Positions 52,792 to 62,716 of a stretch of 64,000 bases of DNA are shown in pieces. Within the stretch, counting starts at the first letter, position 1. Every line of letters starts with the position of its first letter. The notes beneath the pieces are model-generated. The model made no database searches, had not been told where the DNA came from, and worked only from the letters and a program-made list of their open reading frames with translations. A program made the position numbers and the translations under genes. The stretch is from Chryseobacterium tagetis (GTDB lineage Bacteria > Bacteroidota > Bacteroidia > Flavobacteriales > Weeksellaceae), in contig NZ_JAERSE020000004.1 in NCBI RefSeq assembly GCF_016735585.2, positions 434,001 to 498,000 of the forward strand, given 5' to 3'.

Positions 52792-53130
52792 TTATTCTTC
52801 CACAAAATTCTGCGCTGGCTTTACAACTGATATTTTCCCTCCAATGAAGCATGGGCAAGCGGAACTATCTAACAGTTCTTTTTTACCATCAATTTCAAAT
52901 GGAGAAGTATGCTGCCATTTTACTGGAGCAGGATTACAGGATGATCTTAGAATACGACAAGTACCAAAAGGTTTTATATTAGTGTTGGGCTGTTTATCAT
53001 CCTCTGTAGCCTGTAGCTTTCCATCAATACACATGAAGGATTGACTGGTTACTGTGATTGGAGTTGGTGAAGTACCTTTATCACATTTTAGCTGGGTTGT
53101 ATTAGTAATGTACTGAGGCATAAATATCAT
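52792..53130 (-). CDS. DUF4280 PAAR-like protein
   Basis: The 112-aa protein (or 109 aa from the MPQY start at 53121) has the DUF4280 pattern: MPQYITNTTQLKCDKGTSP, the NTNIKPFGTC segment, and a C-terminal CPCFIGGKISVVKPAQ. DUF4280 proteins are PAAR-like spike tips or associated parts in type VI and related contractile systems. The Cys pairs may bind a metal. The ATG at 53130 overlaps the upstream stop as ATGA, indicating translational coupling to the immunity gene. Confidence 0.82.
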   Translation of the reverse strand: MIFMPQYITNTTQLKCDKGTSPTPITVTSQSFMCIDGKLQATEDDKQPNTNIKPFGTCRILRSSCNPAPVKWQHTSPFEIDGKKELLDSSACPCFIGGKISVVKPAQNFVEE

Positions 53131-53519
53131 TTTTTTAAAGATTTTTTACCTGTAGCTCCAGCTATCTTTTTAATAAAGCTATCCAACTCTTTTGACTGAT
53201 AGAAATCCATACAGTACCAAAAGATATAATTAGCATTGGCATCTTCAAGATTTTCCATAACTCCCCTTTTATAATAATCTCCTGTCGTTTTATCTACGAA
53301 AGTATCTATAGAGTTGAGATTATTATAATCAGCTTTTTTAAGCTGAAATATATAAGATGCCGAATAATCATGACTAACAAATGATGGGTCAGCTTTTTTA
53401 TAATTGCTTGATAAGCATTTATGCAAACTATACTTTTTAAGATTACCTACTTCGGTTTGTGCAGATAGTATAGCGTTAAAAAAAAATAGTAACACTATAT
53501 TAATTATTTTAGTTCCCAT
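53127..53519 (-). CDS. Tai4-like type VI amidase immunity protein
   Basis: The 130-aa protein has a signal peptide (about 1-20, ending LSAQ) and Cys35 and Cys103, which could form a disulphide. Small secreted proteins of this shape (Tai4) sit next to Tae4 peptidoglycan amidases and neutralise them in the periplasm. It overlaps the effector gene by 16 bp and the DUF4280 gene by an ATGA. The family assignment rests on size, signal, Cys pair and gene order rather than strong motif similarity. Confidence 0.7.
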   Translation of the reverse strand: MGTKIINIVLLFFFNAILSAQTEVGNLKKYSLHKCLSSNYKKADPSFVSHDYSASYIFQLKKADYNNLNSIDTFVDKTTGDYYKRGVMENLEDANANYIFWYCMDFYQSKELDSFIKKIAGATGKKSLKK

Positions 53520-54265
53520 ATCCTTATTCTATTTGTTTGTACTAATGTTAATTCTTTTTTTCGATCATTCCATCCATAAGAAAGCATACTAAAATAGTAT
53601 TTGTCATTACCCAAAGTATCATGTTCAATGCCTCCTGGGTATATAAGATGATTTGTATCCCATAATGTAAAATGCCCTGTTGCATCTCCCCATCCAGAAA
53701 CATCAAACACAACAATCCCTTTAACACTTTTTATTTTCTTCCATTGGTCTGCTGCCAGCTTTTGCTTTTTAGCTTTTACTTGTTTCCATTCTGTTGGTGT
53801 TAAAAATGTTTTCTTCCTATACTGGTCTGGCATTACCAAGTTGGTTAAATTATAATCTATCTCGGGTTTTCCTAAATGAGCAGCAAGATAGGGGCTTAAT
53901 TCTTTAACTCTAAGCCAATAAGACAAATTTTTATCTCCACTCATTACTCCTCCTTTTGACCCATAGCCCCTATTGCTTTTAGGTAATTTAAAACCACTTA
54001 AATTTAATCCCCTACTCATTCTTATAGCACACGAATTTGCTAAATAGGAACTTAGCAACTCTTCATCTGTTTTAAACTTTGGGAATGCACCTCCAATATC
54101 ACTATATAAATCTTTAGATTTTATAGATGTGTTTGGATAATTCTTAATCATATCTCTCCAACTAGGTCTTAAAATCTGCACAGGTTTTGTTTGTTGGTTT
54201 CCACTTGTTGCAATAATACCCCTTTGTTGCTCTAATAGAATTGGTATAAAATTATTAATATTCAT
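53504..54265 (-). CDS. Tae4-type type VI secretion amidase effector
   Basis: The 253-aa protein has the Tae4 papain-like amidase core. Cys79 lies in the SCAIRMSRGLN motif, His198 in GWGDATGHFTLWD, and Asp203 follows. The RPSWRDMIKNYPNTS start of the core (about 33) is also characteristic. Tae4 enzymes cut the gamma-D-glutamyl-meso-DAP bond of peptidoglycan in rival bacteria. The extra N-terminal stretch of about 30 residues may guide loading on VgrG. The immunity gene overlaps it downstream. Confidence 0.88.
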   Translation of the reverse strand: MNINNFIPILLEQQRGIIATSGNQQTKPVQILRPSWRDMIKNYPNTSIKSKDLYSDIGGAFPKFKTDEELLSSYLANSCAIRMSRGLNLSGFKLPKSNRGYGSKGGVMSGDKNLSYWLRVKELSPYLAAHLGKPEIDYNLTNLVMPDQYRKKTFLTPTEWKQVKAKKQKLAADQWKKIKSVKGIVVFDVSGWGDATGHFTLWDTNHLIYPGGIEHDTLGNDKYYFSMLSYGWNDRKKELTLVQTNRIRIWELK

Positions 54266-54275
54266 GATAGTGTAT

Positions 54276-56522
54276 TTATGTATTTTCTTCTTCTATTTCC
54301 TCTTCTTTCATAAGTTCAAGAGTATAGGATTTTAAAGATTCTTTAAAGACGACTATTCCATCCCTGTCTACTGTTCCCGATAAAGTTAACTCATTAAGTT
54401 CGTCAGTTAATGGTTCACCATCAACTGACTTTATAGTAACATCAATACTTTCTCCCTCTTCATAATTTCGTGTTTGTACCACTAAACTCATATCAACATA
54501 GAACTTTGAGTCATCTATTAATGATGTATTGTCTTCTCCATATGCCCAATACATATTTACAATCTGCTTTCCTTTGCTGTATTCAAACTCGCCATTCTGA
54601 GGAACTTTATTCATTTGCGGAGCTTTATACTCAATCTTGTCTTTCGCAGTCAATAAGGAATGGGCTCCATACACATGCATTCTCTCTTTTGCTCCGAACT
54701 CTGTCTGTCCATCGGTATAACCTATAAATTTTTCTTTACCATATAAGTCTAAATGAGCTTTTGCCGATATTTCAATATGGGATCCAGCATTGATAATGGT
54801 CTTCTTACCACTGTCCTGACTGATTTCTTGTCTTGCAATAATTTTAATATTCTCTCCAACATGGGTATCCATATTATTTCCTGCTTTGGTCTCAATATTT
54901 TCCTCAATATCAAACTTCAGATTCTTAGATTTTATAGTAATGGTTTCAGGAGCAGTAATGTTAATATTGCTACCTTTTGTATCAAACCTCAATTCATTAC
55001 CACTTTTATCAGTCAGTACAATACTTTCATCTTCTGTAAACACCAATCTATGCCCACTTCTGGTGTGTAATGATTTCACTCGGTTGTCCATGCCACCTCC
55101 CAAGCCTACACCTCCATGAAACATTCCACCCATAGCAAACGGAAAATCTGGATTATGATATTCAAAACCAACCATGACCTGATCTCCAATCTCAGGAATT
55201 GCTACAAAACCTCTGTTTTGAGTAATTGCTCCTGTTCCCCCTGCATCAGGACTCATCATTCTGATAAAATGGGTGGTGTCATTTAACTGCCAGTCAAATT
55301 GTACCTGGATTCTTCCCTGATTCAGTGGATCTGCATTAGAAATTACAGTTGCAACCTGTGGCTCGGCTTTAGGTAAGATAAAATCAGGCTTCGGCATGAA
55401 GCCCGTTCCCTCAGCGATAGCTTCAAAGCTTCCTTTATAAAAACCTCTTGCATCAACTTCATGGCTTACTTCTGTCATCATCAAGGTCGTAAAGTGAGCG
55501 GTCTGGTTACTGTCCTGATTTCTCATATCTAAATCTGCAACACAACCAATGTAGAGGAACGGGACTGTTGTGTTTCCTGAAACAGTAAAAACCTCTACCG
55601 CCTTGCTTCCTCTTGCACTTTTCTGGGAATCATCCACATCCAGAAACATATTAGCATTCACAGGGCTTGGATTCAGTGAACGGGTTTTGAAAATATTGTC
55701 ATTCAGTTCATAGGCTTTTGCGGATAGATTTCCCAAGTGTTTTATATTATCATTTGAACCCAGTATTTTTGTATGATTACTGCTGTTATAACCAAAGTAT
55801 TCGGGTTTGGTGTGTACTGCTTTTAATTGTACCTGAATATCTGTAACATTGCTTCCGTAAATAAGCTGTATTGGTTTTTCTGACGAGGGGAGTTTTCCGA
55901 AGTGCAGTATTTCACCATCATAATAAAACTGCTCTCCGTAAGCTTCTGCAATTCTTGCAAGATAGTTGTAATGGGTTTCGCAGTATTGCGAACTGTAATT
56001 GATGTAGCTTTTGTTTTGGGTATCGATTCTAAAATCAAAATCATCTGCTTTTAGTGCTTCTTTGATAATATTGTATGCGATAATAGAAGTATTTACAGGT
56101 TGCTTGCCTCCAAAGCTTTGGGTATGGGGAGCTGAATCCATCAAGATAGTAGGACTATATCCTTTGAGGAGGATATTTCCCAGACTCATTTTTTCCTGAC
56201 TGAATGTCACCTGGGTTACCACTCCTGCAAAAGTTCTTTCGGGACTTTCATTTTCAGCATCTTTATAGTTGAAAACAATGGTCATGCGTTTGCCTAAAAA
56301 TTGCTGTGCCTGTTCTAAATGATGATTTTGTTCTTCACCCAGAGAATCATGAGCTAGAGTGAGCTCAAAAGAATGGTGTCTTCTGGCACTCTGTTGTAAG
56401 CGGAAGTGCTTAAAATGGCTGATCGATTTTCCTTTGACCGTAATGTCAAGCCTAACTAAGCGGTTAATGCCAACAATATGGTTCGCCGAAATCTTCTCAG
56501 AATTTGAGATATTTTTTTTCAT
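54276..56522 (-). CDS. vgrG: VgrG-family type VI secretion tip protein
   Basis: The 748-aa spike protein has an N-terminal gp27-like part (FSQEKMSLGNILLKGYSPT, HYNYLARIAEAYGEQFYYDG) and an OB-fold/gp5-like needle from about residue 390. The needle part shows NADPLNQGRIQVQFDWQ and the glycine-rich FAMGGMFHGGVG followed by beta-helix repeats (SGNELRFDTKGSNINITA). The C-terminal extension of about 90 residues (VNMYWAYGED onward) is typical of Bacteroidetes VgrG. It stands as the first gene of an effector island, with no T6SS sheath genes here. Confidence 0.9.
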   Translation of the reverse strand: MKKNISNSEKISANHIVGINRLVRLDITVKGKSISHFKHFRLQQSARRHHSFELTLAHDSLGEEQNHHLEQAQQFLGKRMTIVFNYKDAENESPERTFAGVVTQVTFSQEKMSLGNILLKGYSPTILMDSAPHTQSFGGKQPVNTSIIAYNIIKEALKADDFDFRIDTQNKSYINYSSQYCETHYNYLARIAEAYGEQFYYDGEILHFGKLPSSEKPIQLIYGSNVTDIQVQLKAVHTKPEYFGYNSSNHTKILGSNDNIKHLGNLSAKAYELNDNIFKTRSLNPSPVNANMFLDVDDSQKSARGSKAVEVFTVSGNTTVPFLYIGCVADLDMRNQDSNQTAHFTTLMMTEVSHEVDARGFYKGSFEAIAEGTGFMPKPDFILPKAEPQVATVISNADPLNQGRIQVQFDWQLNDTTHFIRMMSPDAGGTGAITQNRGFVAIPEIGDQVMVGFEYHNPDFPFAMGGMFHGGVGLGGGMDNRVKSLHTRSGHRLVFTEDESIVLTDKSGNELRFDTKGSNINITAPETITIKSKNLKFDIEENIETKAGNNMDTHVGENIKIIARQEISQDSGKKTIINAGSHIEISAKAHLDLYGKEKFIGYTDGQTEFGAKERMHVYGAHSLLTAKDKIEYKAPQMNKVPQNGEFEYSKGKQIVNMYWAYGEDNTSLIDDSKFYVDMSLVVQTRNYEEGESIDVTIKSVDGEPLTDELNELTLSGTVDRDGIVVFKESLKSYTLELMKEEEIEEENT

Positions 56523-57070
56523 ACTGTTTTGTTTGTGTTTTTGTATTGTTCTATAAAATTAAATGAATTTTTATATAATCTTCATTAAATATTCATTTTT
56601 TTTGAAAATTGTAGTAGAACTACGATTGTATTTTTTTAGTCTGAAAAGATTTTGAAGGACTGAAAGTAGTAGGCAATAACCAAGTAAATTATTTGGTTTT
56701 GATTGGTTGTCAATTTTAAAAATATTATATAGAGCAGATGTTTATTTTGCATGAATACATTAATGAATTAATAATAAAGCAAAATAAAATACAGCATTTA
56801 CTCTGTTTATATTTTTTACGGTTTACAGGTAAAAACTCTCATTTAAATCCTTTATAAAAGCAAGTGACCGGTTCTGACTAATTCTGACCGGTTTTGACCG
56901 TATTTTACCCCATTTCTTCGGAAGCTCTTCGGGTCTCGTTCGGAAATTCCCCGGAAAATAGGGATTTTTGGAAAGCCGACCCGAACGAGTCTCGAACGAG
57001 AGTCGAAGGAAACCCTACCGAAATTGCTAAACCTGCTTCTTATTTTCTACTTTTTCCGTTTACACTTGCT
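56523..57070. other. Gap between vgrG and the recombinase-linked cluster
   Basis: These 548 bp hold a strikingly GC-rich block at about 56864-57010 with repeated GACCGG and TTCGG words. An inverted pair CTCGTTCGG/CCGAACGAG (56935-56943 with 56981-56989) is also present. No convincing gene is visible. The block may mark a recombination boundary. Confidence 0.6.
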
Positions 57071-57085
57071 ATCGTTTTTTGAGAT
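57071..57085. repeat. 15-base boundary motif, copy 1
   Basis: Exact ATCGTTTTTTGAGAT, 7 bp past the stop of the last gene of the recombinase-linked cluster. It may mark the left end of the gene string. Confidence 0.75.
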
Positions 57086-57092
57086 AAATAAT

Positions 57093-57323
57093 CTATAAGT
57101 ATTTGCTTTTCTTGCATTTGATCATTTTTTGAGATTTATCATTTAGCTTTAGTATTAGAATAAAAAACAAAGCTACATTTGTAACCATAGTTGATAAGAT
57201 AACCGCTGAGTAAATAATATCAATATATGTATTTCTCACTTCTATCTGTATTAAAATAAAAAACATAAGAAACACTATTAAGAATAGAAAAGATGTTATA
57301 TAGAGTAGCTCTTTATTTTTCAT
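57093..57323 (-). CDS. Small two-helix membrane protein, 76 aa
   Basis: The protein has two hydrophobic segments (about residues 8-26 and 36-58) and a basic C-terminal tail. I recognise no family. A one-mismatch copy of the boundary motif (57121) lies inside its 3' end, which encodes the DKSQKMIK stretch. The full motif flanks it on both sides, as if it were a cassette. It may be a membrane partner of the neighbouring unknown genes. Confidence 0.6.
   Translation of the reverse strand: MKNKELLYITSFLFLIVFLMFFILIQIEVRNTYIDIIYSAVILSTMVTNVALFFILILKLNDKSQKMIKCKKSKYL
57121..57135. repeat. 15-base boundary motif, copy 2 (14/15)
   Basis: ATCATTTTTTGAGAT, one mismatch from the consensus, inside the coding end of the 76-aa gene. 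It may be a duplicated boundary now read as protein. Confidence 0.6.
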
Positions 57324-57326
57324 CGA

Positions 57327-57341
57327 ATCGTTTTTTGAGAT
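57327..57341. repeat. 15-base boundary motif, copy 3
   Basis: An exact copy filling almost the whole 17-bp gap between the 83-aa and the 76-aa genes. Its last base is part of the upstream stop codon. Confidence 0.75.
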
Positions 57342-57592
57342 TATTTTTTGTAGTCTATAACATCGACATATTTAAAATTATCAATATCATGTGTGGAATT
57401 AAATTTTTTAAATTCATCTACTGCCTTTTTCGCAGAATCTATATTGGGAAAAAGAGTACCTTTTACATTCAGTAGAATTTCAAATCTAAAAGTTTCGTTG
57501 TAGTAATCAACAATTTGAACCAATGCAAATTCTTTTCCTTGCTTTTCTGCATATACTCTAATAGGATTACTTTGTTCTAAATTATTACTCAT
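57341..57592 (-). CDS. Hypothetical protein, 83 aa
   Basis: I prefer the ATG at 57592 (MSNNLEQSNPIRVYAEKQG), 4 bp past the stop of the upstream HTH frame. The product is small and soluble with alternating strands and a helix (ALVQIVDYYNETFRFEILLNV, DSAKKAVDEFKKF). I recognise no domain. It ends directly at an exact copy of the 15-base motif. Confidence 0.65.
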   Translation of the reverse strand: MSNNLEQSNPIRVYAEKQGKEFALVQIVDYYNETFRFEILLNVKGTLFPNIDSAKKAVDEFKKFNSTHDIDNFKYVDVIDYKK

Positions 57593-57596
57593 TATA

Positions 57597-57764
57597 TTAT
57601 TTTTTGCTTTGCATTTTTTTAATTTCATCGTTCATATGATTGTCAAGAATTTTTGCGTAACGATAAAATGTTCCTCTTGTTAGCCCTAGTGGTTTATAAA
57701 TTTCTTCCGGTGTTTTTGAACTATTGTTTTTTGAGACTGAATTTATGGAATTAGTTTCTTTCAT
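57597..57764 (-). CDS. Orphan resolvase-type HTH fragment, 55 aa
   Basis: This short frame has a C-terminal 38-residue stretch beginning TPEEIYKPLGLTRGTFYRYA. It matches the C-terminal HTH of the serine recombinase at 61259 at 28 of 38 positions by eye. No catalytic domain is present. The N-terminal 17 residues are unrelated and contain a two-mismatch boundary motif (57723-57737). It is either a recombination leftover of a recombinase 3' end or a stand-alone DNA-binding protein. The 4-bp spacing to the next gene would allow coupling. Confidence 0.65.
   Translation of the reverse strand: MKETNSINSVSKNNSSKTPEEIYKPLGLTRGTFYRYAKILDNHMNDEIKKMQSKK
57723..57737. repeat. 15-base boundary motif, copy 4 (13/15)
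   Basis: ATTGTTTTTTGAGAC, two mismatches from consensus, inside the 5' part of the HTH fragment. It may mark the junction where the fragment was joined. Confidence 0.5.
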
Positions 57765-57788
57765 ATTTTCTAACCTTTTTAGTAAATC

Positions 57789-58688
57789 TCAATTTTCCGT
57801 TAGCACAAATTCCTTATCAATATAAAAATTATCATTCCAATATTTATTAGAAAACTTTAATCCTTGTTGGTGCTCATTTATTAGTGTTTTGTGACCGGTT
57901 TTATATTCACGCTGATATAAACGCGTTGCACAATAAAAATAATTATCAACCTTTTTAACAAAAAAATAATATATATATGCTTTGTTTGTTGTTCTAAATT
58001 GCATTTGATAGCGATGTAAATTTTCATCTACAATAAATTTTTGGCTATATACAGTCCATTGCTTTCCCGATAATGTTCCTATATTCCAAAATTTAAGTAA
58101 ACCATCATAACAAACGGCGGACATAGTAATTTTTTTATCTATTTTAGGTTTACAAAGACTCAACATCTCATCAAAATCTAATAAAATTGCTTGAGCATCA
58201 TAGATAGGATTATTAGACGGATTTTGAATATCAATTGTAAAAAAGGTTGGTCTAATAGAGCGCAATTTAATATGTGGGAGATCTGCACCTATATTATAAT
58301 TGATAAATTTTTTTTGCTCATTACTATATTTTTCTGTTACAGATAATAAACTTTCGGTTTTACCGCTAACTTTTTCGTTTAAGTGAATAATAATGTAATT
58401 TAGAGAATCAGATTCTTTTTTATTTTGTTTTTGAGCAGAAATAAGCTCAGCATTAAGCTTCAAAATCTGATTTGTTTTATTATCTGCTTTGATCCTTTCT
58501 GCTTCCGCTTTTTCCTTTTCATCCTTAGAATCTATGTATTGAAATACTGCTACTATTATGGTAAGAAGAGAAAATATTACAACAGCCAATCTTCTTATTT
58601 TAAATTTCCAAGCATTGGACTCGATATCACTGAAAGCTAAAAATCCAGAGATAATTGTTAATACAATTATGGATATAAGTAAGCTCAT
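57789..58688 (-). CDS. Membrane-anchored coiled-coil protein, 299 aa
   Basis: Two hydrophobic helices at the N-terminus (about 1-20 and 31-50) are followed by a heptad-rich coiled coil (about 55-125: KEKAEAERIKADNKTN, ISAQKQNKKESDSLN). A beta-rich C-terminal domain (about 135-299) includes PTFFTIDIQNPSNNPIYDA. I recognise no family. The anchor, stalk and sensor-like layout would fit a signal or defence protein at the inner membrane, but that is inference. Confidence 0.7.
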   Translation of the reverse strand: MSLLISIIVLTIISGFLAFSDIESNAWKFKIRRLAVVIFSLLTIIVAVFQYIDSKDEKEKAEAERIKADNKTNQILKLNAELISAQKQNKKESDSLNYIIIHLNEKVSGKTESLLSVTEKYSNEQKKFINYNIGADLPHIKLRSIRPTFFTIDIQNPSNNPIYDAQAILLDFDEMLSLCKPKIDKKITMSAVCYDGLLKFWNIGTLSGKQWTVYSQKFIVDENLHRYQMQFRTTNKAYIYYFFVKKVDNYFYCATRLYQREYKTGHKTLINEHQQGLKFSNKYWNDNFYIDKEFVLTEN

Positions 58689-58760
58689 ATTTTCTTTGTT
58701 GTTATTAGTTTTTTATTATTTCTGAGTATTGGATTTTCATTATAGTTTTTCTTCCATTAC

Positions 58761-58775
58761 ATCGTTTTTTGAGAT
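58761..58775. repeat. 15-base boundary motif, copy 5
   Basis: An exact copy of ATCGTTTTTTGAGAT, 23 bp past the stop of the 299-aa gene at 58799, in the same orientation as the other exact copies. Confidence 0.75.
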
Positions 58776-58798: not shown

Positions 58799-59698
58799 TT
58801 ATTTGAAGGCTAGTTGGTAATTGAAGTTGATCTCAAATTTTACTTTTTCATCTAAATCATCATATCGCTTTTTTACTTCTGGAAATTTATTGATAATATT
58901 TTTTGTCATAACATTAGTCATTAAATAAGAATAGAAAAGCATTAAATATAAATTTTCTTTCATAAAAGGATGATCCATCAAATGCTTTGACTGTTTTAGC
59001 TGGATAGCCATAATTCCTTCAGAATGGGCATATACCGAAGCTATAAAATATATTTTTGAGAACATACCTTTAGAATTGAATTTTGATTCTGACATAATAG
59101 TATCCCATGTTTTAAATAGTTTTCCAGATCCATTTTCTAACAAACTTTTCTGCTGTTTCTCACTAAGTGTCTTAAAGGTGGGATTATTTGAAATACTCTT
59201 CCTAAAATTATCAATTGCTACTTTTTCATCAGTTAATCTCTCATGATCAGCTTTTTCTGGATCAGAGAAAACTTTGGATCTTAGCATCATTGAAGACATC
59301 ATCCATGAATCAAAGCGTAATTGGTTCTCTTCCGAAATAGATGAATTTACATATAAATGTTGATACATCAACAACGATTCATATTGTGATCTTACGATAG
59401 TGATTACAGAGGAAATATCAAGAAATTTAATGTGCGGTGCCCTATTTTTATAATACTTTGATTTTATTGAATGTCCTTCAGATAAATCGAGCAAGCTTAA
59501 ATTCTGTAGATGAAACTTTAAGATTAATTGCTCAGAATAAATATCATTTGATTCAAGTTGCACATTTTCTTCAGTTAAAATCTCATGTAAATAAACTAAA
59601 AGATCCGTGCTGTTAAATAATTTATTTTTAATATTATCAATATTTTTTGTTACATATAATTTATAAAGCTCTGTAGCCCATAATCTTTCATTGTCCAT
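58799..59698 (-). CDS. Hypothetical helical protein, 299 aa
   Basis: An all-alpha soluble-looking protein. It contains ISSVITIVRSQYESLLMYQHLY and FIASVYAHSEGIMAIQLKQSKH, a pattern that loosely recalls DUF5677-type proteins with Arg, Tyr and His residues in helices. I cannot support a family call. It is followed by an exact copy of the 15-base motif and preceded by a fragment of resolvase-type HTH. Gene context suggests an accessory cargo gene. Confidence 0.65.
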   Translation of the reverse strand: MDNERLWATELYKLYVTKNIDNIKNKLFNSTDLLVYLHEILTEENVQLESNDIYSEQLILKFHLQNLSLLDLSEGHSIKSKYYKNRAPHIKFLDISSVITIVRSQYESLLMYQHLYVNSSISEENQLRFDSWMMSSMMLRSKVFSDPEKADHERLTDEKVAIDNFRKSISNNPTFKTLSEKQQKSLLENGSGKLFKTWDTIMSESKFNSKGMFSKIYFIASVYAHSEGIMAIQLKQSKHLMDHPFMKENLYLMLFYSYLMTNVMTKNIINKFPEVKKRYDDLDEKVKFEINFNYQLAFK

Positions 59699-59772
59699 TA
59701 ACTTTTTCCTTTTGTTTTTGAATTTATAAAATAAGCTGTTCCTTATTTTAAATAGTTCTATGAAATTAACTT

Positions 59773-59865
59773 TTATTCTAGTAATAATTTAATTATTTTA
59801 TAAAATGTAGTTTTACTTCCAGTATTAAAAGTTTTCATAATTTCTTCTACGGAGTTCTTTTGCAT
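59773..59865 (-). pseudogene. Degenerate resolvase-type HTH remnant, 30 codons
   Basis: The frame MQKNSVEEIMKTFNTGSK continues with TTFYKIIKLLLE and a stop. It aligns with the recombinase C-terminal HTH around EI, TFY and the final K..L positions, more weakly than the fragment at 57597. It lies 8 bp past the stop of the 224-aa gene. It is likely the worn-out end of a recombinase gene left behind by insertion or excision. Confidence 0.45.
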
Positions 59866-59873
59866 CAATTATT

Positions 59874-60548
59874 CTAAGAGTTTTTTTTATCTTTCAAGTC
59901 TTTAATTTTCCACAAACTATAATTAAGCTTGTACATTATTTTAAAAGCTCCTGATAATTTTTGTATCGATGAAGGTATGGAATCAGAAAATTTTGTAGAT
60001 ATTTTGAATTCACCTACGCTACCAGGTAAATATTGTGAATGGCTTTCCGTATGATCAAAAATATATTTACGCAAAATCCTAAATATCATGCTTTTATTTG
60101 TTTTAAAAAGTTCAGGAAATTCTTTTCTCCTTTCGTCACGAGTAAATTCATATTCTTCATAAATAAAACCATCAAAATCAGATAGATGTAATAGATTTTT
60201 CCAAAATAGATCATCCATGTAACGTAAATTTTCAGAATTGCTTAAATGCATAGAAAGAAACAAGCCTTCGTTATTAATTCCTAAACCGTATGTACAATTA
60301 GTCTTTAAAGATTTTATAATTAGCTCTGGACCATTCAAGAAGTCATTAAAATAATTGTAATCCCACTCATCTTTAAATTTTCCAAATGATAAAAATTCTT
60401 CAAAAGTCTCTGACAAAGAATCAACACAATTCATCAATTTTCCATGATAAATTTCCGGCTCCAACAATCTCTCTTCGCTATTCAGAGATACTAAATATGT
60501 ATTAAATGATTTAATCAGTAAATCGACATCAGTTTTTCGTTTTTTCAT
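59874..60548 (-). CDS. Hypothetical protein, 224 aa
   Basis: A soluble, Phe/Tyr-rich acidic protein (KFKDEWDYNYFNDFLNGPEL, YGLGINNEGLFLSMHLSN). No signal peptide, membrane segment or known motif. It begins 19 bp past the stop of the 226-aa gene and is likely cotranscribed with it. The unusually AT-rich codons match the rest of this cluster more than the pectin locus. Confidence 0.65.
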   Translation of the reverse strand: MKKRKTDVDLLIKSFNTYLVSLNSEERLLEPEIYHGKLMNCVDSLSETFEEFLSFGKFKDEWDYNYFNDFLNGPELIIKSLKTNCTYGLGINNEGLFLSMHLSNSENLRYMDDLFWKNLLHLSDFDGFIYEEYEFTRDERRKEFPELFKTNKSMIFRILRKYIFDHTESHSQYLPGSVGEFKISTKFSDSIPSSIQKLSGAFKIMYKLNYSLWKIKDLKDKKNS

Positions 60549-60567
60549 TAAATTAGTTTTTTCTATT

Positions 60568-61248
60568 TTATCTTAATTCATAATCATGAATATAAAACGT
60601 TGAAACACTATTTGATAAGCAAAATCCCTCAATTGGTTTTCCAATGAATTCATCTATAAGAAAGTTTTCTTTTACTTTTGTTACATCATCAAAACAGAAA
60701 AACGTTATATACTTATAAAAGGGAGCACCAGAATAATTCTGTATTGCAAAGCCTAAATCTCTAATAGTATGAACAGGAGTATATTTGTTGATATATTTAA
60801 TTATTTCATTACAAATTTTAGCTTCACCCAAAGTTAAACTAGTATTCTCACAAGGATAATACATACCAGGAATTTCTAGCTTTTTTGTGTAACTAAAAAC
60901 GGTGATTGAATGAATACTTTTGTTATCAACAGTAGTTATTTTTAAATTAGCATTTTTTAAAAAATATAAATCTGACATAAACTTTTCAGATTCACCTAAC
61001 TCATCTTCAAATATCGAAAAATCTTCATAACTTTTATCCGGAGAACCTAGGATTTCCTTAACTTTTAGATAATTTCTTTCCGGATGGAATGTTTCAATAA
61101 GTTCATTTGTTAGTATAATATTTGAATTTAAATTCCTTGGAGAATTTCCATTTTTCAGTTCCTTAACTTTATAATACCAATTAATAAGTCGCTCAATTAT
61201 AATTACAATTACTCCTCCGATTATTCCACTTACAATATTTTCAAACAT
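60568..61248 (-). CDS. Hypothetical membrane-anchored protein, 226 aa
   Basis: One N-terminal transmembrane segment (about residues 4-24, GIIGGVIVIIIERLINWYY) is followed by a soluble domain of about 190 residues (YLKVKEILGSPDKSYEDFS, YINKYTPVHTIRDLGFAIQ). I recognise no family. It lies 10 bp downstream of the serine recombinase, so it may be carried with it. Immunity- or defence-type cargo would fit but is unproven. Confidence 0.65.
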   Translation of the reverse strand: MFENIVSGIIGGVIVIIIERLINWYYKVKELKNGNSPRNLNSNIILTNELIETFHPERNYLKVKEILGSPDKSYEDFSIFEDELGESEKFMSDLYFLKNANLKITTVDNKSIHSITVFSYTKKLEIPGMYYPCENTSLTLGEAKICNEIIKYINKYTPVHTIRDLGFAIQNYSGAPFYKYITFFCFDDVTKVKENFLIDEFIGKPIEGFCLSNSVSTFYIHDYELR

Positions 61249-61258
61249 GTTTTTAAAT

Positions 61259-61864
61259 TTATTTTTTATTTGACATTTCTTTTATTTCTGCATCTGTATG
61301 GTTATCTAAAATTTTAGCATATCGATAAAATGTTGCCCTAGTTAATCCAAGTGGTTCATAAATTTCTTTCGGAGCTAAAGTCGGGTTTTTATATATAGAT
61401 CTCATAACTAAAAGTTTAGATATTGTTTCTTTTGTATACCCTTTTGGTCTGCCTCCCAATCTACCTCTTGCTCTGGCAGATTGCAATCCTGCATTGGTTC
61501 TCTCTCTTATCAGTTCCCTCTCATATTCTGACAACGAAGCCATAAGATTTAAAAAAAGACGACCATTGATAGTGGAAGTATCTACACCATCTACAAGACC
61601 TTTTATTATTACACCCTTGTCACTAAAACTTAGCACAAGATCAATTATATTTTTCAAGCTTCTACCCAATCGATCTAATCTCCAAACGTAAAGTTCATCA
61701 CCTTCTCTAAACTGTTCAATCATCTTATCAAGTTCAGGACGATTTTTTGTTGCACCTGAAATTTTCTCCTGAAAAATCTTCTCACAACCTGCTTTTTCTA
61801 AGGCTTCAATTTGCAGATCTAAATTTTGATCTTTGGTCGAAACCCGGGCATAACCTATTTTCAT
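61259..61864 (-). CDS. Serine recombinase, resolvase/invertase family
   Basis: The 201-aa protein matches the small Hin/Gin/Tn3-resolvase size. The catalytic domain has GYARVSTKDQNLDLQ with Ser9 and Arg7, VWRLDRLGRSLKNII with the active-site Arg pair, and LFLNLMASLSEYERELIRERT before the E helix. GRLGGRPKG leads into the C-terminal HTH (about 160-190: KEIYEPLGLTRATFYRY). It can invert, excise or join DNA between short sites. Copies of its HTH segment lie downstream at 57597 and 59773. Confidence 0.93.
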   Translation of the reverse strand: MKIGYARVSTKDQNLDLQIEALEKAGCEKIFQEKISGATKNRPELDKMIEQFREGDELYVWRLDRLGRSLKNIIDLVLSFSDKGVIIKGLVDGVDTSTINGRLFLNLMASLSEYERELIRERTNAGLQSARARGRLGGRPKGYTKETISKLLVMRSIYKNPTLAPKEIYEPLGLTRATFYRYAKILDNHTDAEIKEMSNKK

Positions 61865-62716
61865 ATTTTGTTACATTAAACTCATACCGGTTAAATTTAT
61901 GAAACTTTGTTTAATGATATGAGATTATGAGAAAGTTAATTGAAAAAATAAGATTTTACAACTAAAAAATTCTAAAATCTCAAAATACTACGGAAATTTC
62001 CAAACATAAATTTTTAAAGAAGAATCAAATGTCAACTCTAGAAATTTATGAAATTCTTTCCTAATCTTTACACTAATGTTTCGATTTTTCTTTCTTTATG
62101 GGTTTAAGACAATATTAGCTAAACAATGACTTTCTAAGACAATGCTGATTTTATAAATTTTTTGGATCAAATTGCATTAGGTAAAAATTAAAAAAAATTA
62201 TTTGACAAAAATGAACTTTGTAATTCCTGTTTAATTTGGTTCAAACGAATTAAATCATCTATAAAAGTGGTTGAAGATACACTCAGCTTGGTTCTATGAC
62301 AGGATTATTTAATTCTATAAACCTTTCTAAATCTTCCATTAAATATTTCGAGAACTCTTCTGTTATGGCTAGGATGCCAAATGACACCAACTATCTTTAG
62401 TTAATACCATTTATTTTCAAAATCTTTCATAGCCAAATTGTTACACATATTTAAAGTCAAGAGAAGAAAACAATTAAATAAAAAACTGAATGTTAACACA
62501 TTAAAAAATATATTTTAATAGCTTGACTTTACAAGTCTTGTCAACGTAACAGTAATTTAACCTCGCAAATTTTAATATGGTGAGGTTATATCTATTCTTT
62601 GAATATTGAGGCAAAAACTTAAAATTCTTCCTTATTACCAAAATATTAAGACTACCTGATTATTTCATATTTAAAAATTTAAAAACTTTCTGGGACAAAA
62701 TGAAAGCAAATGAAAA
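61865..62716. other. Gene-poor gap before the tRNA remnant
   Basis: These 850 bp of very AT-rich DNA lie upstream of the recombinase. AAAATCTCAAAA at 61974-61985 is a partial, inverted version of the 15-base boundary motif. A minus-strand stretch near 62283-62390 could be the worn tail of a gene, but I cannot support it. No RNA gene is seen until the tRNA remnant. Confidence 0.6.

Follow-up and report, generated by a model that had tools for sequence, protein, structure and literature searches.

A 15-base site at the boundaries of gene cassettes associated with a small serine recombinase in Chryseobacterium

Does a short motif that recurs at gene boundaries close to a serine recombinase gene mark the joints of a mobile cassette array? 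This question is raised by a locus of Chryseobacterium tagetis within a stretch of 64,000 nucleotides, which was analysed as a whole and is called here the window. A scan of the window confirmed the five positions and the single orientation given in the original prediction, the 15-base motif being exact at 57071-57085, 57327-57341 and 58761-58775, with one mismatch at 57121-57135 and two mismatches at 57723-57737. Four copies with at most one mismatch are found against 0.02 expected, a number that none of 100 shuffles reached. At up to three mismatches there are 12 matches against 8.04 expected, of which seven have three mismatches, which corresponds to the chance level. The motif had also been described as confined to the cluster, and this holds insofar as the other seven matches all have three mismatches, but one of them, in the opposite orientation at 61977-61991, is real and had been missed, being the conserved left end of the recombinase module (LE).

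The genes of the cluster are on the minus strand, so the working form of the motif is RTCTCAmAAAACGAT, named here RE; on the gene strand it reads ATCTCAAAAAACGAT. Regarding the proposed proximity to stop codons (ends at 58799, 57341 and 57093), the copies at 58761 and 57071 start 23 and 7 bases after the stop, respectively, whereas the one at 57327 overlaps it. The copy at 57121 sits within the 3' end of a 76-aa ORF, and that at 57723 within a 55-codon ORF corresponding to a C-terminal recombinase fragment. In the whole genome RE is present at 10 places (at most one mismatch) and the reversed pattern at none, clustering being restricted to the four copies of the window.

Along the minus strand, the island of recombinase gene and array would have its left limit at LE (61977..61991), which reads inward as GTAGTATTTTGAGAT and is a diverged, inverted relative of RE; most alignments of other modules to the window start at 61991 or a few bases from it. 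There follow the gene of a small serine recombinase of 201 aa (61259..61864) and a head unit (58799..61248) with three ORFs (60568-61248, 59874-60548 and 58799-59698), for which no Pfam family was found above the cut-off and between which there is no RE. At 59772-59860 is the degraded C-terminal remnant of a recombinase from a second lineage, with 79-92% identity to pieces in L034, L059, L060, L063, L064, L099, L106 and L108 (loci are given as L numbers and genomes as G numbers) and no recognisable RE before it. Next comes RE1 (58761..58775, exact), for which comparison with other loci gave no junction evidence of its own, and then a cassette (57723..58760) with a 299-aa ORF (57789-58688) that ends in RE2 (57723..57737, GTCTCAAAAAACAAT). 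For RE2, L064 matches 57741-57077 at 96.8% identity, the sequences upstream of the site being different. The following cassette (57327..57722), which occurs in L064 too, starts with the recombinase fragment (ORF 57597-57764), also carries a 95-aa ORF (57341-57628) and ends in RE3 (57327..57341, exact). At RE3 the homology of the next cassette begins at 57333-57346 in eight loci (L029, L030, L031, L032, L033, L059, L060 and L076), the junction with L031 being the one displayed as an alignment. This next cassette (57121..57326) holds the 76-aa ORF (57093-57323), which extends across RE4 (57121..57135, ATCTCAAAAAATGAT), and is present with 92-95% identity in at least five other genomes, where it ends at sites. 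The array closes with a 50-bp mini-cassette (57071..57120), a piece that follows a different sequence in L060 (RE4), and with its last site, RE5 (57071..57085, exact), where the upstream side is common with L030 and the downstream side differs. Four of the five sites in the window (RE2, RE3, RE4 and RE5) have junction evidence of their own. No Pfam family above the cut-off was found for the window's own cassette proteins.

The 201-aa protein has the layout of a small serine recombinase, with an N-terminal Resolvase domain that bears the serine motif (PF00239, residues 3-135, E-value 3.5e-44) and a C-terminal helix-turn-helix-like part (residues 138-182; HTH_7, 0.0085, under the cut-off). Its nearest solved relative is the DNA-invertase 4m6f (5.2e-45), to which the region of serine 9, presumably the catalytic residue, aligns.

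The exact RE is present in 97 of the 173 genomes of Chryseobacterium, the genus of the window, and 379 copies were counted over 172 genomes, against 11 copies in the genus set for the reversed-pattern control (counted by eye); clustered copies mostly form co-oriented arrays. As the original prediction anticipated, the motif stands beside other genes in related genomes, including positions 3' of relatives of the recombinase. In a family-wide draw it was found in 90 of 296 genomes and 5 of 33 genera, with only seven genomes outside the genus, mostly with one copy each (G266 has eight). Co-oriented RE with recombinase relatives is also observed in Epilithonimonas, in Sphingobacterium and on a C. 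shandongense plasmid, for example in Epilithonimonas bovis (L220), where 14 co-oriented sites come after the recombinase gene. Viral contigs gave 88 stretches with RE, one copy each among the 80 of these that were listed, and in phage records the best identity was below 80%. The small plasmid pWB1 of Sphingobacterium faecium (L369), with floR, estT, tet(X2) and erm(F) among its annotated genes, carries LE and the recombinase, and no RE was found on it.

Gene order between motifs is variable across genomes and breaks at the motif, another expectation of the original prediction that was borne out. Pairwise BLAST comparison (at least 120 bp and 75% identity; L029-L108 and the last 14 kb of the window) placed 649 of 2090 usable homology ends at 15 bp or less from an RE, compared with 27-97 when the sites are shifted by 40-300 bp and a mean of 147.8 (maximum 164) for random intergenic positions; these pairs are not mutually independent, and of the 1395 distinct end bins 177 are near a site. 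A nearby homology end is found for 196 of 453 sites. Moreover, junction pairs of at least 93% identity with a clear one-sided break locate the exchange within the motif. When the upstream cassette is common (29 pairs), the whole RE agrees, at 0.90-1.00 per position; when the downstream cassette alone is common (26 pairs), positions 0, 6 and 12 agree at 0.46-0.54 and the AT and next bases at 0.88-1.00. RE is thus part of the 3' end of the upstream cassette, with the crossover inside the AT. Comparison shows that RE is the cassette boundary and moves with the upstream gene, a cassette having the form AT-gene-RTCTCAmAAAACG/AT. The original prediction recognised the joining site as a short motif, but it had escaped notice that on the minus strand every cassette has this site as its 3' end. 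In the logo of 61 distinct copies the information is concentrated in 16 positions (A-RTCTCAmAAAACGAT), the surroundings contributing little, and the site shows a single conserved arm plus the AT. The final dinucleotide is AT in 260 of the 269 distinct cassettes, although the matrix that selected them favours AT.

Genome G099 allows two arrays of one genome to be compared. One is chromosomal and the other lies on an 81-kb contig with repeated ends, as expected of a circular plasmid of about 61 kb; they agree at 100% identity along 8,707 bp (LE to RE) and along a further 4,808 bp. Between the identical blocks the chromosome has 4,340 bp extra, comprising three cassettes with both limits exactly at RE, and in the plasmid-like array the upstream site GTCTCATAAAATGAT is kept and joined to the sequence behind the downstream site. 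The common block is limited on the left by LE and on the right just past an RE, the outside flanks being different. An assembly error is conceivable for this difference, and even then the block limits would fall on LE and RE. These comparisons show precise gain or loss from RE to RE.

Taking as cassettes the segments of 150-4,500 bp that separate two strong sites of the same orientation, 314 were obtained and 269 distinct ones remained after repeat removal, with a median of 984 bp; 162 of them have one ORF of at least 50 aa and 18 have none. ORFs of at least 70 aa are mostly on the strand of the site (309, compared with 54 on the opposite strand). A Pfam scan covered 290 of the 303 cassette proteins of 70-700 aa, and among the 25 commonest families listed per search are YhcG/DUF1016 nucleases (9), Mrr-type restriction (4) and AbiC-like proteins (2), together with Abi-alpha, AbiTii, GmrSD, PIN and HNH nucleases, SoFic, bSEFIR, GajB-like proteins and varied enzymes. 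At least 106 of the 290 have no match at 1e-5, a bound derived from the tallies. A mixed accessory pool including defence-like members is a fair description of this cargo. Also, 11 of the 473 flanks behind sites (10 without a repeat) continue into a recombinase gene; the points of entry are codons 34, 48 and 51, codon 108 or thereabouts in four cases and codon 161 in three, two of the latter, from L064 and the window, being one common cassette. For codon 48 and for three of the four cases near codon 108, the joint coincides exactly with the AT of an ATG within the gene. Such joints suggest that units behind a recombinase may become cassettes via ordinary AT sites.

On the other side of the module, about 120 bp upstream of the recombinase start codon, conservation among 23 aligned modules ends at GTRGTWTTNTGAGATTTT, and the logo of 42 distinct modules gives the same limit. 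The flanks outside are mostly locus-specific, a few of the 42 modules having a common one, with a preference for AAAACG beside LE (CG at 33 of 42 for each base). This comparison shows LE as the module boundary, and its sequence makes it an inverted relative of RE that carries GT where RE has AT. An RE arm together with an LE arm would give a 13-2-13 dyad, an arrangement suggestive of the junction of a circle. Among 83 LE matches, none exactly abuts an RE, as the trace of such a junction would. One filled and unfilled pair for LE was obtained (L186 and L080), with 90% identity over 600 bp up to the junction behind CG, whose core is AT in L080 and GT at LE. Given the 10% divergence, this difference is possibly a substitution. 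The right flank of the pair is absent in G071. A search with the right flank of an array gave no clean empty site, the region holding other insertions in several genomes, and the left flank from G160 was not conserved among 98 genomes. In the right-flank intergenic region RE occurs at two different AT-ending positions. The intergenic region of L108 (8680-8760) and L109-L117, beside a conserved gene, has an inserted content that varies between genomes and is apparently an insertion hotspot. In the window, the sequence outside LE at 62140-62290 matches many genomes, often at several places per genome.

A module bounded by the inverted relatives LE and RE, an LE-to-RE block that is identical at two places of G099 with different flanks, and the joining of RE to the interior of recombinase genes would all be compatible with an element that is primarily a transposon ending in LE and RE; its repeated insertion, together with one-ended events, would leave rows of RE, with the cassettes as by-products. 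However, most of the units between REs have neither LE nor a recombinase, and the difference in G099 runs exactly from RE to RE, so we consider this explanation unlikely, while giving it some weight. Island movement and cassette exchange may even be two reactions of one enzyme, which would make the transposon and cassette explanations compatible.

The connection between RE and the enzyme was approached from both directions. In a set of 84 loci selected by similarity to the recombinase (79 plus 5 plasmids), co-oriented RE is present in 28 of 39 near relatives (more than 65% identity), 27 of these downstream on the same strand, compared with RE downstream in none of 45 distant relatives, one of which has a co-oriented RE upstream. 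The near loci contain 75 co-oriented sites against seven opposite ones, four of which are LE itself, and the reversed control gives two. Sites 3' of the recombinase match in the first locus set are 152 co-oriented and seven opposite, loci with two matches being partly double-counted. Among 60 loci selected by the motif, 20 have a member of the recombinase family (14 at 80% identity or more, six at 30-54%), which is the commonest ORF family there, the runner-up reaching eight; at the other 40 no recombinase ORF was found within the stretch examined. RE is present in 42 of 44 genomes with the LE/recombinase module compared with 55 of 128 others (Fisher p 9e-11); in G086, where no module was detected, there are 20 copies. 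Comparison shows an association of RE with one recombinase subfamily, and through this association the window-type recombinase would be the enzyme that performs the exchange. The head recombinases in the RE arrays of L059, L064, L099 and L108 are just 42-44% identical to that of the window; they could act on RE as well or could simply lie beside the arrays with no relation to them.

The usual substrate of small serine recombinases is a two-armed site. RE has one arm plus AT, and LE an inverted arm, often with AAAACG outside. Together with the many RE loci and genomes that have no module, the single arm of RE could mean that the arrays are truly site-specific and that some other enzyme acts on them, a tyrosine recombinase or a recombinase encoded elsewhere, the serine recombinase being a frequent passenger. 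However, a 2-nt exchange suits serine enzymes, which exchange over 2 bp according to PMC6188088. Moreover, downstream RE tracks the near subfamily, the recombinase dominates the ORF families at motif-selected loci, and its gene is bounded by LE, itself a relative of RE, which leaves the action of another enzyme rather improbable. Scarcely credible is a regulatory or RNA element between genes, with rearrangement by homologous recombination: its intergenic location near stop codons would fit, but the breaks coincide with the motif at a precision of a few bases, homologous exchange would have little length to work with in 15 bp, the motif is tied to one recombinase subfamily, hairpins are not in excess, and an Rfam search of the window gave no match. 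Folding similar to that of attC was rejected, the mean energy of 219 cassette ends being -9.9 compared with -12.2 in upstream control windows of slightly higher G+C, and the longest word complementary to RE 4.95 compared with 5.00 in controls; the earlier statement that the motif is not a known integron attC agrees with this. An inversion system was also rejected, the sites being almost always co-oriented.

The explanation that we hold with considerable confidence is that the region is a mobile gene-cassette array worked by the small serine recombinase encoded at its head, and genome comparisons support the original proposal, namely cassettes joined at a short site in an array that is linked to this enzyme. 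Each cassette would consist of one gene, sometimes several, followed by RE (RTCTCAmAAAACG/AT) at the 3' end. The recombinase would bind the conserved arm of RE and exchange strands around the AT dinucleotide, joining one RE to another. Two co-oriented REs recombining with each other would release the cassette or cassettes between them, presumably in circular form, and insertion would be the same reaction run backwards. The recombinase gene and the array would constitute an island with LE as its left limit, and RE would also join AT dinucleotides elsewhere, including those within recombinase genes. Here, the circular intermediate and the role of LE are steps that we infer. The evidence for recombination is comparative, and on this basis the case is stronger than in the original prediction, for a cassette system linked to a serine recombinase, whose 15-bp site is defined and whose crossover is narrowed to 2 nt. 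We also lean, with some reserve, towards an independently evolved counterpart of the integron, in which a small invertase-like serine recombinase, acting at a one-armed 15-bp site with AT as exchange dinucleotide, would capture and shuffle cassettes, spread them between chromosomes and plasmids, and make new ones from arbitrary DNA through the joining of RE to ordinary AT sites.

Integrons comprise the tyrosine integrase IntI, attI and attC cassettes. With short cassettes in rows and cutting and joining exactly at a 15-base motif, which a serine recombinase apparently carries out, the arrays of Chryseobacterium and related bacteria resemble integrons with another enzyme and another site. The likeness lies in co-oriented, mostly single-gene cassettes with a site at the 3' end of each, in cassettes common to different arrays in changed order, and in a mixed accessory cargo. 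In contrast, judged by the commonest ORF family, the enzyme at the head of the array is not IntI but a serine recombinase (PF00239), its gene is co-directional with the array, the site is linear, with no excess of attC-like folding over the 219 cassette ends, and no attI was found. Composite SCC elements have large Ccr serine recombinases, long units and one chromosomal target, with tandem units separated by short direct repeats. A serine recombinase and tandem units between short direct repeats are found here too, whereas the enzyme has 201 aa and the units of about 1 kb are in many places, with mostly locus-specific flanks at 42 LE modules.

The rAID clusters (recombinase-associated acquired interbacterial defence) of Bacteroidales are similar in layout and, according to PMC12247911, combine a tyrosine recombinase with orphan T6SS immunity genes. 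Here, however, the head gene encodes a serine and not a tyrosine recombinase and the cargo is mixed. Orphan T6SS immunity genes are not among the 25 commonest Pfam families listed per set, and the array of the window adjoins a Tae4-type effector gene. The IS607-type serine transposase, as described in PMC6188088, has a 2-bp identical exchange sequence, a very short target and an N-terminal DNA-binding domain, terminal inverted repeats being reported there as absent. Both are serine recombinases with a 2-bp exchange, but in the present enzyme the catalytic domain is N-terminal and no DNA-binding domain precedes it, LE is an inverted relative of RE, and there are cassette arrays. No gene-cassette array of a serine recombinase was found in searches of open-licence PMC papers. 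To our knowledge, the known cassette arrays (integrons and rAID clusters) are all tied to tyrosine recombinases. An array in which a serine recombinase is paired with a short linear site would represent a way of capturing genes distinct from these. RE could serve as a marker for mining a large accessory gene pool in Bacteroidota, some of it defence-like, and the system is perhaps a simple tool for cassette shuffling. Two questions become testable: by what means an enzyme of the invertase group might recombine separate molecules at a site with one arm, and what gives rise to new cassettes.

Finally, past the last RE of the window, short direct repeats are present at 56852-57010, and related copies recur in other genomes (for example, four in G026) and once in the window's own genome. 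A 748-aa ORF adjoining the array (within 53127-56522) looks like a VgrG spike. Beyond it, in the same region, are a Tae4-type effector (PF14113, 1.3e-21) and a Tai4-like immunity ORF just under its cut-off. VgrG-like DNA is also near the arrays of L175 and L179.
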